Source of the DNA: an uncultured Halieaceae bacterium
GTDB taxonomy: Bacteria > Pseudomonadota > Gammaproteobacteria > Pseudomonadales > Halieaceae
Length of the DNA stretch: 38,428 bases
Direction of reading: 5' to 3'
Assembly (NCBI GenBank): GCA_913048495.1
Contig: CAJWWA010000003.1
Span: 1 to 38,428 of the forward strand
Under the pieces are notes generated by a model. It had not been told where the DNA came from and did not search any database. It saw nothing but the letters and a program-made list of their open reading frames with translations. The number at the start of each line of letters is the position of its first letter. Within the stretch, counting starts at the first letter, position 1. A program made the position numbers and the translations under genes. Positions 1,208 to 29,908 of this stretch are shown in pieces.

Positions 1208-1578
1208 GGCTCGCCGCCCCCTTCACCGCCGGGCCCGCTCTCTCTAGCGGTTTCTTCGCCGGCGCGACGCGCCTTCGCCTTTTCCGCCCGCGCCTTGCGC
1301 GCGGCTTTCGGGTCGGCCTTCAGGGGTCGATAAATTTCCACCCGGTCCCCGGGCCTGAGCGCCTGCTGTGGCGGCACGGCCTGGCCGAAGATGCCGAGGT
1401 TCGTCCCCGCGTCGATCACCAGCCCGGGGAACTCCTGCTCGATACCCGACTGCTGCGCGGCCTCCAGGGCCGTCGTACCCGCGGTCACCTCGAGCGGCAC
1501 GATCAGCTGGCGCTCCGGCAGCGCGTAGGCCACCTCGACGGCGATCAGCTCACCTTCGCCCTTCTTTGCTGCGGTCAT
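1204..1578 (-). CDS. rnfH: RnfH family ubiquitin-like protein (UPF0125)
   Basis: This 124-residue protein belongs to the RnfH/RatB family, small beta-grasp proteins of unknown biochemical role. Family features are IAVEVAYALPERQLIVPLEV at the N-terminus, GIFGQAV in the middle and RPGDRVEIYRPLKADPKAARKARA at the end. The last 25 residues are a charged Lys/Arg/Gly tail. The start at 1578 overlaps the ratA stop as ATGA, which indicates translational coupling to ratA. The ratA-rnfH pair next to bamE is a conserved gammaproteobacterial arrangement. Confidence 0.92.
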   Translation of the reverse strand: MTAAKKGEGELIAVEVAYALPERQLIVPLEVTAGTTALEAAQQSGIEQEFPGLVIDAGTNLGIFGQAVPPQQALRPGDRVEIYRPLKADPKAARKARAEKAKARRAGEETARESGPGGEGGGEP

Positions 1579-2006
1579 CCGTACAGCTGCCTGGCGCGAC
1601 GCACGACCGCGTCCACGAGGTTGTTGGTTACCCGGTCGAAAAGCCGGCTGGCGGCCGCCCCGAGCAGGCTCGAGCGCACGGCGAAGTCGAGCTCCAGGGT
1701 CACCTTGCAGGCGGCGTCGCCGAGCGCCTGGAAGTGCCAGCGACCGGCAAAGCGCTCGAAGGGCCCCTCCTTCAACTCGAGGACGATGCTCTCCGGTGCC
1801 AGCAGCCGGTTGCGGGTGGTGAAGCTCTGGGCGATGCCGCCGCGGGACAGGTCGAGACGCGCCTCCATGCTGGCGTCGTCCCGGTGCAGCACCTGCGCGC
1901 CCACGCAGCCTTCCAGGTACTGCGGGTACGCCTCGACATCGTTGATGAGGTCGAACAGCTGGCGCTGGGTGTAGGGCAACAGGGCGCTTCGGTTGATGGC
2001 GGGCAT
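1575..2006 (-). CDS. ratA: RatA/COQ10-type START-domain protein
   Basis: This 143-residue single-domain protein is of the polyketide-cyclase/START fold known as RatA or COQ10-like. Eukaryotic Coq10 binds coenzyme Q; E. coli RatA was described as inhibiting 70S ribosome association, so the cellular role in this organism is open. Typical elements are INRSALLPYTQRQLFDLINDVEAYPQYL at the start, the central GIAQSFTTRNRL, and the long C-terminal helix SRLFDRVTNNLVDAVVRRARQLYG. The start was set at the ATG at 2006; the longer frame upstream is not family-like. The stop overlaps rnfH by 4 nt. Confidence 0.93.
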   Translation of the reverse strand: MPAINRSALLPYTQRQLFDLINDVEAYPQYLEGCVGAQVLHRDDASMEARLDLSRGGIAQSFTTRNRLLAPESIVLELKEGPFERFAGRWHFQALGDAACKVTLELDFAVRSSLLGAAASRLFDRVTNNLVDAVVRRARQLYG

Positions 2007-3536: not shown

Positions 3537-4019
3537 ATGTCAAAAAAGAAACGCAAAACGCCCGATAACGTCATTGTCCAGAACAAGCGCGCCCGCTTCG
3601 ACTACGAGCTCCTCGAGACCTTCGAGGCCGGCATCGCCCTGGAGGGCTGGGAGGTGAAGGCCCTTCGCGCCGGCAAGGTTCAGCTTACCGATTCCTACGT
3701 CCTCATGAAGGACGGTGAGGCCTTCCTGCTGGGCTCGCAGATCACCCCGCTGGATACCACGTCGGCGCACACGGCGGCGGACCCGTCGCGTACCCGCAAG
3801 TTGCTGCTGCACAAGAAGGAACTGGCCAGGATCCTGGCCGCGACGGCGCAGAAAGGGCAGACCTGCGTGTGCACGCAGCTCTACTGGAAGAAGCACCTCG
3901 TCAAGGCGCGCGTTGCGCTGGCCCGCGGCAAGCAGACCCACGACAAGCGGGACACGACCAAAGAGCGCGACTGGAACCGGCAGAAGCAGCGCATCCTGCG
4001 CGACGCCGTCAAGCAGTAA
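3537..4019 (+). CDS. smpB: SsrA-binding protein SmpB
   Basis: This 160-residue protein is the partner of tmRNA in trans-translation: it binds the tRNA-like domain and carries it to stalled ribosomes. Hallmarks are [33 protein letters not shown] at the N-terminus, [13 protein letters not shown], the [12 protein letters not shown] segment, and the basic C-terminal tail ending [12 protein letters not shown], which enters the decoding centre. The length is normal. No Shine-Dalgarno sequence precedes the ATG, and a consensus -10 ends 8 nt upstream, so translation may be leaderless. Its RNA partner ssrA is about 24 kb away in this window. Confidence 0.97.
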
Positions 4020-27727: not shown

Positions 27728-27981
27728 GAGGGCTCCGGGAGGCAGGGTCCAAGATCCAGCATTATGCAGTGCCCGCCCGGCCCGGGGCCACCGCTGCGGC
27801 CGGCGCAGGGGGAACTTGTTACCCGCGAGACGGTCGAAGTGAGTGACAGTGAAGAGTGCCGGATGTGGTACCCTTGCACTGGAACCTGGGGGCGATACGG
27901 ATTCGACGGCAGTAACGAACCCTGAGGTGCATGCCGTGATGGCAGCCAATCACGTAAATCCAAAGCTGCAAACCAATAGTT

Positions 27982-28020
27982 GCCAACGACGACAACTACG
28001 AGGTAGCGCTGGCCGCGTAA
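27982..28020 (+). other. tmRNA proteolysis-tag reading frame
   Basis: From the resume codon GCC at 27982 the frame reads ANDDNYEVALAA and ends at TAA (28018-28020). The ANDDNY start and ALAA end are those of typical ssrA tags recognised by ClpXP-type proteases. Two residues (E, V) sit between the usual ANDDNY and ALAA. The resume codon follows the usual AATAGTT context. Confidence 0.95.
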
Positions 28021-28263
28021 GCGGTCCATCGTGACCCTCATCTAGTGGCTTCGGCCCTAGCGGTCTTTAGCAAGGTGCCAGTACCGCGCTACTGACTGTC
28101 ATAGAGAACTGGATCGCAGCCGGGCATGTCCCGGGTCAGGCTGTTAAACATAAACGGGGCTCGCCGACCACGTCCTGCCCGTCGGGCTGTGGAAGGCTAA
28201 AGCAATAGACGGAACCTAAGCATGTAGAGCCGAAGGCGGAGTACTGGCGGACGCGGGTTCGAT

Positions 28264-28546
28264 TAACACCATGGTCGCCACGGGGAGTGATCCCCGTTGG
28301 AAAAAGAGGGCTCATACGGTGAACGCTAAGGGGCTGGCAGTGAAAAGCCCTACGCCAACGCCGTCCGGTGAATGGGAAACCAGCAAGCCGGCTAGAGACT
28401 CATAGGCTCCTACCGATGCCCAGGGCATCCACGGAGTACTAGGGTGGGCATGAAGATGCTCACAACACGCCCTCCCCTGCCACCGGGCCTGGCCCGATGC
28501 AGGTGAAGGAATAGTCCAGCCCATGTCGAAAGGCATGGATCAGCTG
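28264..28546 (+). ncRNA. Group I intron in the T-loop of tmRNA
   Basis: The intron is self-splicing in type and lies between T-loop U59 and U60. P1: CGAU|UA (28260-28265) pairs with UGGUCG (28272-28277), giving the splice-site pair U28263.G28274. P2: ACGGGG (28280-28285) with CCCCGU (28292-28297). P3: CAU-A-CGGU (28313-28320) with ACCGAUG (28412-28418), one bulge. P7: GACU (28397-28400) with AGUC (28513-28516), in the classic contexts AGAGACU and AUAGUCC. P9: CCAUG (28521-28525) with CAUGG (28534-28538). The last base is G28546 (omega-G). A UGG-GAAA-CCA tetraloop hairpin is at 28373-28382. There is no homing endonuclease ORF. The subgroup was not assigned. Confidence 0.92.
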
Positions 28547-28568
28547 TCCCGCCGCCTCCACCAATTCC

Positions 28569-28602
28569 CCTCCTCGGCCCAAGGCCGGGGAGGATTTTCT
28601 TT
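28569..28602 (+). terminator. Intrinsic terminator of ssrA
   Basis: An 11-bp stem, CCTCCTCGGCC (28569-28579) with GGCCGGGGAGG (28583-28593), closed by a CAA loop and containing one T.G pair, is followed by ATTTTCTTT. It begins 6 nt after the tmRNA CCA end. Confidence 0.9.
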
Positions 28603-28666
28603 CCGCCGCAGAATACAGTTCGAGCGCACGTTGTGCCTTCTTGCGTGGCATTGCTAGGCTTTAGAC

Positions 28667-29908
28667 ATGCCGCTGATTGCCAGGCGCGCCCGCCGGTTGT
28701 GCCGGGGGCATCGCAAAGCTAGCGCGAAGAGGCGCAAGGACGGCGTCAAAGATCCCTGTGTGCGGGTTCGGCACGCGATGGTCCTGGTGGTCTGCCTGCA
28801 GGGCCCCTGCGTCACCGCACAAGGTCTTACCCTCGGCCCCATCGACGTGGGGGGCGCGGTGCGCGCCAACCTGCTGAACAAGAGCTGGGAAACCCGCAAG
28901 CGCTTTCCCCGCGACGCTCTTGAGTTCGACACGTTGCGCCTGCGCCTGGATTTCGAACAGGATCAGTGGGAAGGCTCGTCGCAGTACCGGTTCTACTACT
29001 ACGACGAAACGGACCGCTACACTCACTTTCTCCACCATGCCTGGGTCGGCTACCGGCTGGCGCCGGGACGCACGCTGCGCGCCGGCGTGCACCAGGTCCC
29101 CTTCGGCAACCTGCCCTACAACTCCCACAGCTATTTCTTTTCCCTGGCCTACTACGTGGGACTTGAAGACGACTACGACCTGGGCATCAAGTACACCGAC
29201 CGGCGCGGCCTCTGGCGCTTCGACCTTGCGTGGTACCTCGAAGACGAGGGTAGTGGCTACGGCGACAGCAGGGACAGCGCTCGCTACTCCTACGATGTGG
29301 TGAAAAGCGCCACCTCAGCCAACGGCGAGGAGAACCAGCTCAACGCCCGGGCCAGCTATACGCTGGCGCATGGCGAGCACGGGGCATCGCAGGTCGGGGT
29401 TTCCCTCCAGGCGGGGGAGGTGCCCAACGACGCTACCGGCAGGACGGGCAGCCAGGTAGCCGCGGCCCTGCACTGGAACGGGGACTTCGGCCCCTGGAAT
29501 CTCAAGGTGCAGAGCGCCTGGTACCGCTACAACCTCGAGAACCCCCCGGGGCAGGCGGACACGGCCGTCGTCATGGGGGCCTACGATTTCCCCTACCGTG
29601 TCGCTGCGGAGGGCACCCTGCACAGCGTCGGCATCAGCTACCACTGGGACGTGGACTGGGGCACGGTCACCGGCATCACCGCCTACGAGGACTACAGCGT
29701 GCTGCGCAAGGCCGGGGCGGACTTCGAGGACTCCATGCAGAATGTCGTCGGCGTTTCCGTCGACGCCGCGCCACTATTCATCTACGCGGACATCGCGCTC
29801 GGCCAGCATAACGCCTGGATCGGCCGTGACTTCGGCACGGCCCTTGCCAGCGGCGGGGACGACGACCTCCATGTGCGGGTAAACCTCAACATCGGCGCCT
29901 ACTTCTAG
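28667..29908 (+). CDS. Outer-membrane beta-barrel (porin-like) protein
   Basis: This protein of up to 413 residues has amphipathic beta-strands throughout (for example FDTLRLRLDFEQDQWEGSSQYRFYYYDE is typical in pattern), an HHAWVGYRLAPGRTLRAGVHQVPFG segment as in phosphate-porin-like barrels, and a C-terminal Phe (NIGAYF), the BAM recognition residue. The start is uncertain. A Sec-type signal seems to begin near GTG 28760 or ATG 28778 (MVLVVCLQGPCVTA-QG), while ATG 28667 would give an unusually long basic N-region. A possible promoter (TTGTGC 28631, TAGGCT 28655, spacing 18) would start transcription near 28667 and favours a later start. The transported substrate is unknown. Confidence 0.8.
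   Translation: MPLIARRARRLCRGHRKASAKRRKDGVKDPCVRVRHAMVLVVCLQGPCVTAQGLTLGPIDVGGAVRANLLNKSWETRKRFPRDALEFDTLRLRLDFEQDQWEGSSQYRFYYYDETDRYTHFLHHAWVGYRLAPGRTLRAGVHQVPFGNLPYNSHSYFFSLAYYVGLEDDYDLGIKYTDRRGLWRFDLAWYLEDEGSGYGDSRDSARYSYDVVKSATSANGEENQLNARASYTLAHGEHGASQVGVSLQAGEVPNDATGRTGSQVAAALHWNGDFGPWNLKVQSAWYRYNLENPPGQADTAVVMGAYDFPYRVAAEGTLHSVGISYHWDVDWGTVTGITAYEDYSVLRKAGADFEDSMQNVVGVSVDAAPLFIYADIALGQHNAWIGRDFGTALASGGDDDLHVRVNLNIGAYF

Follow-up and report, generated by a model that had tools for sequence, protein, structure and literature searches.

An uncultured Halieaceae bacterium with a compact group I intron in the T-loop of its tmRNA gene, and relatives of the intron in bacterial and viral DNA

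How can a tmRNA gene serve ribosome rescue when it is broken inside its T-loop by an insert of 283 nt? The question is raised by a draft genome of an uncultured Halieaceae bacterium (424 contigs), one entire contig of which, 38,428 bases long, was analysed here and is called the window. A sequence-only reading of this DNA had ascribed the insert to a group I intron. The first exon of the tmRNA gene (27888-28263, forward strand) holds the 5' tRNA-like half, the body, the tag reading frame and the 3' half as far as nucleotide 6 of the T-loop (...GCGGG-TTCGAT). The second exon (28547-28563, forward strand) holds the last T-loop base, the 3' strands of the T-stem and acceptor stem, and CCA. The Rfam tmRNA model RF00023, which the earlier reading had proposed as a check on 27888-28563, matches 27896-28265 with 152.4 bits (E 3e-60), and this match is forced to end at the T-loop insert. 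With the insert in place, ARAGORN reports 0 genes in the window. Without 28264-28546, it finds a complete tmRNA of 393 nt with a CCA end and the tag ANDDNYEVALAA, whose reading frame and stop occupy 27982-28020 on the forward strand. The joined exons have tRNA-like ends, a G.U third acceptor pair, the T-arm, CCA and a tag frame. The boundaries, the T-arm, the G.U pair, the CCA and the 283-nt length all proved to be as first described.

The product of joining is thus directly seen to be intact, and so is the gene of its partner SmpB, which lies in the same window at 3537-4019. A search of the 3.5 Mb draft genome with RF00023 gave the window gene as the sole tmRNA above the cut-off; two further sites, both below it, have scores of 17.7 and 16.1 bits. 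Directly after the CCA stands a terminator-like hairpin with a T-rich tail (28569-28593, forward strand; -23.2 kcal/mol, z -3.35), and sites of this kind are at about chance level (one found, against 1.1 in shuffled sequence). Upstream of the tmRNA gene, a search for promoter-like sites gave none. An integrase was also sought beside it; the neighbouring ORF, 28667-29908, has no Pfam match.

The insert itself (28264-28546, forward strand) begins directly after T-loop nucleotide 6 and contains no ORF of at least 80 aa. Its fold is better than that of 199 of 200 shuffled sequences (z -2.99), and all 68 pairs of the P1-P9 scheme are standard pairs in the window copy; the helix names are those we take from general knowledge of group I introns. 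P1 (28260-28277) is formed by exon bases CGAU (28260-28263) and the guide GUCG (28274-28277), invariant in 18/18 introns compared, each with a U.G pair at the 5' splice site. It is followed by P2 (28280-28297), which has a four-base GUGA loop, and by the 5' strand of P3 (28306-28311), which pairs with 28469-28474. P4, P5, P6 and P6a occupy 28316-28391. The guanosine-binding helix P7 (28397-28400 with 28513-28516) forms a pseudoknot with P3, and between P7 and the 3' strand of P3 two hairpins, P7.1 (28406-28410 with 28433-28437) and P7.2 (28444-28450 with 28457-28463), fill 28406-28463. This arrangement presumably places the intron in an IA-like subgroup. P8 spans 28476-28503, and the segment 28518-28546 holds P9.0 (28518-28519 with 28544-28545), P9 with a GAAA loop (28521-28538) and the terminal G (28546); all these helices are on the forward strand. 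A convincing P10, between the 3' exon and the guide, was sought and none was placed. The P1 with its U.G splice-site pair, P2, P7, P9 and the terminal G of the earlier reading all have their place in this scheme; its P3 also stood, with six placeable pairs in place of the seven claimed.

The scheme can be judged by comparison. The window intron and 17 of 18 named loci with an intron at the same site were aligned with their flanks by sequence alone (MAFFT); the eighteenth (L038) was omitted for its long P8 insert. Of 1198 cells, 96.2% were paired, compared with 80.4% in shuffles and 33.1-41.6% when the partners were slid. Two-sided changes occurred in 38 of 68 pairs (shuffle mean 26.0; 0/500 shuffles as high) and further pair types numbered 68 against 59.2 in shuffles (equalled by 1/500), counts that tilt toward the scheme because it was drawn by eye from the same, related rows. 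Covariation is clearest in P2, P3, P5, P6, P7.1, P7.2 and P9. The pairs with two-sided changes are 7/7 in P2, 3/6 in P3 (100% paired), 1/6 in P4, 5/8 in P5, 2/4 in P6, 2/3 in P6a, 4/5 in P7.1, 7/7 in P7.2 and 5/7 in P9. P8 has 2/5 and is 85.6% paired, a score lowered by what reads as a one-position slip of the MAFFT alignment in rows of the Thioalkalivibrio type. P1, P7 (4/4 pairs) and P9.0 give no covariation signal because they are invariant among the 18 introns. The group I core, P3 to P9 with the P7/P3 pseudoknot, is therefore present, with covariation directly seen in P2-P6, P7.1, P7.2, P8 and P9 only. By eye, P9.0 is C-G in viral introns, described below, and G-C in bacterial ones. The omitted locus, a tmRNA intron from an Acidiferrobacterales MAG (L038:6913-7257, forward strand), carries its long additional insert in the P8 region.

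We therefore hold with high confidence that this tmRNA gene yields one precursor with a compact group I intron, which would be spliced out to leave a normal tmRNA. The gene and intron would be transcribed together. An outside guanosine, bound at P7, would most likely attack on the 3' side of the U in the U.G pair of P1 (28263/28264), and the freed exon end would then attack after the terminal G at 28546, joining TTCGAT to T in the junction GGGTTCGAT-TCCCGCC. Splicing would make the acceptor stem and the T-arm whole again, for SmpB and for alanylation. Ribosome rescue would depend on this event, since the gene encodes the sole tmRNA above the cut-off and the unspliced RNA would have neither the T-arm nor the 3' acceptor strand in place. 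Splicing, self-splicing and any regulation of splicing are predictions from sequence. A variant of this reading, in which the intron is of group I and has lost the ability to self-splice, so that the cell lacks tmRNA or leans on protein helpers, is very unlikely: every pair of the scheme is kept in the window, the 18 sequences keep them with compensatory changes, and the exon halves and SmpB are intact.

The Rfam group I model (Intron_gpI, RF00028; gathering score 50) seems at first to speak against a group I intron, and the earlier reading had named its silence beforehand as a refutation. The window copy indeed gave no match at gathering and none at E 10 across 28200-28620, nor did its genome at up to E 1, while the identical genome search was positive in 8 of 14 control genomes. 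The model is equally silent on relatives. None of the 13 scanned bacterial homologues was matched at gathering, and neither were the viral loci L052 and L054; L035, L045 and L049 were unmatched at E 5, and L052 at E 0.5. A Thioalkalivibrio homologue (L036) was nonetheless matched over its intron with 33.6 bits (E 2.9e-5), below gathering. A covariance model of our own (R1), built only from the 18 aligned tmRNA introns and covering 12 exon bases, provides an independent link. It scores the window intron, which is in its training set, at 304.5 bits, and also matches an intron in a tRNA gene of a genome of the same family (L063; 49.1 bits, E 4.6e-12) and the viral intron L053 (124.8 bits, partly from exon and guide bases), to which RF00028 gives 80.4 and 103.7 bits. 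Since R1 reaches L063 and L053, and RF00028 reaches the homologue L036, the window intron is tied to accepted group I introns. The argument that a missing RF00028 match disproves group I was rejected for this reason. We read the silence on the window copy as a limit of the model, a match to which is a detection aid and not a defining trait. An annotation gap results at this locus: ARAGORN finds 0 genes, RF00023 stops at the insert and RF00028 says nothing.

The same silence would suit a different account, in which the insert is a spacer outside group I, cut by tRNA-type processing to leave a tmRNA in two pieces; two-piece tmRNAs do exist, according to the part of a 2025 survey available to us (PMC11915505). 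We regard this account as highly improbable. The break lies inside the T-loop, the gene order is normal and not permuted, the insert has the P1-P9 fold with a U before it and a G at its end, and R1 and RF00028 link it to accepted group I introns. The U and the terminal G are shared by all of the strong R1 matches (40/40).

The group I intron at this site is also supported by relatives in which the site is empty. When 58 genomes, the window's own included, were searched, 33 gave a match; six of these (own included) cover the entire intron and 27 the exon only, to or just past the T-loop. In all intronless loci fetched (24/24), the T-stem is directly seen to follow the T-loop, one of them (L021) having a changed 3' end. 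Comparative structure, empty sites and the model links thus all uphold the original proposal that the T-loop of this tmRNA holds a group I intron. That the insertion is an assembly artefact or was misplaced is scarcely credible even for a draft in 424 contigs, because the same intron interrupts the same nucleotide in independent assemblies, namely 7/140 family genomes (own included) and 18 named contigs, some of named strains.

The intron is patchily distributed, which fits gain and loss. With R1, a tmRNA intron was found in the 7 of 140 family genomes just mentioned, an eighth match being the tRNA intron; among 369 genomes of the class it was found in 20 (own included), and the window's own genome has one R1 match. 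A pattern of the intron's first bases retrieved the 18 named contigs: 16 Gammaproteobacteria (by record name or its reading), one Candidatus Muproteobacteria and one Nitrospirales. The closing 3' exon is present in every one of them (18/18), the introns measure 253-345 nt, and the carriers include Pseudohaliea rubra DSM 19751 and Chromatocurvus halotolerans DSM 23344. Two additional class genomes have weak R1 matches outside tmRNA; the weak non-tmRNA matches L083, L084 and L085 (24-28 bits) do not enter the counts. The tRNA intron (L063:1501-1748, forward strand), by reading in the anticodon loop, adjoins a similar second tRNA copy at 1321-1384 (Rfam, 38 bits).

Carriers and non-carriers differ in the T-loop. 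The intronless loci read TTCAA (22/24), TTCGATT (1/24) or TTCGAGA (1/24); for those of the same family (among L010-L033), TTCAA stands in 21/22 and TTCGATT in 0/22, compared with TTCGAT in 7/7 Halieaceae carriers. TTCGAT precedes the insert in 40/40 strong R1 matches, a count in which 19 owe their selection to a pattern including TTCGAT, certain loci stand in two rows, and R1 itself has 12 exon bases. Fifteen of the 40 have other first intron bases, beyond the reach of the pattern, yet they have TTCGAT too. TTCGAT at the carriers fits the pairing of the guide GUCG with CGAU, and the contrast with TTCAA may reflect guide matching or co-conversion of the flanks. The identities of introns and exons were considered as proof of interspecies transfer and rejected in this role: their direction is mixed (window and distant L050, intron 0.845 and exon 0.722; window and nearest L043, intron 0.911 and exon 0.952), the 5' exon came from only 8 of 18 loci, and tmRNA bodies may evolve faster.

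The class to which the window intron belongs is already known, introns having been named as a tmRNA feature in the part of PMC4383926 available to us. The 2025 survey, in its accessible part, counts 883 unique intron-form tmRNA sequences from 21 phyla, all interrupted in the T-loop and most at position 7, of which 36 have an endonuclease gene; it terms the tmRNA intron self-splicing and credits the earlier known site to prior work (PMC11915505). In view of these numbers, the remark in the sequence-only reading that ssrA introns are few and rare is outdated, and the window intron is a further member of this class (PMC11915505, as far as available). It shares with the position-7 introns the insertion point, after nucleotide 6 and before nucleotide 7 of the T-loop, the U before the insert, the terminal G and the P7.1 region; at 283 nt it is close to their mean of 293 nt (843 founding introns), and no structural difference was found against the part of the survey seen (PMC11915505). 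A Clostridium tmRNA intron studied in vitro, as the available part of PMC2729099 describes, is from another phylum than the host of the window. The Halieaceae locus is a clean example of ribosome rescue that should hinge on a ribozyme, with near relatives in named strains of the family. Its intron probably represents a mobile element whose endonuclease was lost or never present.

Viral DNA holds further copies. The first-bases pattern was found in three IMG/VR contigs (L052, L053 and L054), and neither a TTCAAT-type pattern nor a core pattern was found in viral contigs. Two of the three, L052 and L054, are identical across the 4 kb compared. Their tmRNA gene (RF00023, 58.2 bits; T-arm and acceptor stem intact by eye) has a 663-nt group I-type insert at the same T-loop nucleotide as the window (L052:1526-2188, reverse strand; L054:7622-8284, forward strand). 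R1 matches either half of this intron, with 131.2 and 33.3 bits. Unlike the window intron, it carries in opposite orientation an ORF of endonuclease type, LAGLIDADG_3 with 30.4 bits (cut-off 22.5), by eye in the P7.2 region. L053 has a group I intron of 240 nt (1445-1684, reverse strand), which belongs to another lineage, at the same nucleotide of a tmRNA gene scoring 86.7 bits. All share with the window the first bases TAACANNATGGTCGC, a likeness largely demanded by the search pattern.

The records are taken as phages on the basis of IMG/VR and of PHROG and Pfam families. Among proteins near the viral tmRNA genes, five of nine have a PHROG match and four have none; of the large proteins encoded elsewhere in two of the viral records, all have one (9/9). 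The matches include DNA polymerase (phrog_405), primase, DnaB-like helicase and thymidylate synthase. No terminase (PF03237) was found in the three viral records, nor the T4 portal (PF07230), for which the search was also positive in no control genome. BLAST of the window intron against phages and plasmids, and of part of L054 against phages, gave no match. The L053 intron matched 35 phage records, none at 80% coverage; among the best 20 of these 35, it was covered to 23-28% with E values of 4e-5 to 6e-3, in genes for DNA polymerase, a Sak4-like protein, an AAA ATPase or a hypothetical protein, or in unannotated DNA. Among the papers listed in a literature search, none was seen to describe a phage tmRNA gene with an intron; the database of the survey holds 79 phage sequences, according to its available part (PMC11915505). 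The two viral lineages with tmRNA genes interrupted at the nucleotide seen in the window are possibly new.

Their relationship to the window intron was examined in a tree of 40 introns, comprising 38 of 43 collected rows plus L054 and L063; the weak, non-tmRNA matches L083-L085 and the repeats L059 and L066 were omitted. In it, the window intron is closest to P. rubra (96/92) and to C. halotolerans (97/97). The LAGLIDADG-bearing intron of L054 shares a set of 23 rows with the window (100/100), and a 100/100 branch separates the window from L053, which lies with the tRNA intron L063, in a tree whose bootstrap is unsettled, in which L053, L054 and above all L063 have long branches, and in which L053 and L054 are of odd composition. 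A pairing of L079 with L054 was set aside as two long branches meeting, and the broader set of 23 rows was used instead. The tRNA intron L063 differs from that of the window, despite the same family and its detection by R1, in host gene and site and in its very long branch.

The viral copies offer a possible route of intron spread between bacteria. The presence of a LAGLIDADG-bearing viral intron in the tree group of the window suggests that phages may act as vectors. A fuller scenario, which we advance tentatively and rate somewhat short of an even chance, is that large tmRNA-carrying phages spread T-loop introns: an intron with LAGLIDADG would home into the T-loop of the host ssrA gene, preferring TTCGAT, and would then lose the endonuclease to become a compact intron, two distinct group I lineages having reached the same viral tmRNA nucleotide.

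Other elements were seen in the viral records. The record with the 240-nt tmRNA intron also has a transposase ORF (L053:7439-8698, reverse strand; phrog_506), which we take to be of the IS605 accessory or TnpB-like kind. Pfam intein domains were found in two viral proteins, and one more, below the cut-off, in a protein of the phosphoesterase type (L086:564-4268, L086:15003-17084 and L087:1780-4809, all reverse strand); the intein-bearing proteins are a primase/helicase and a DNA polymerase.
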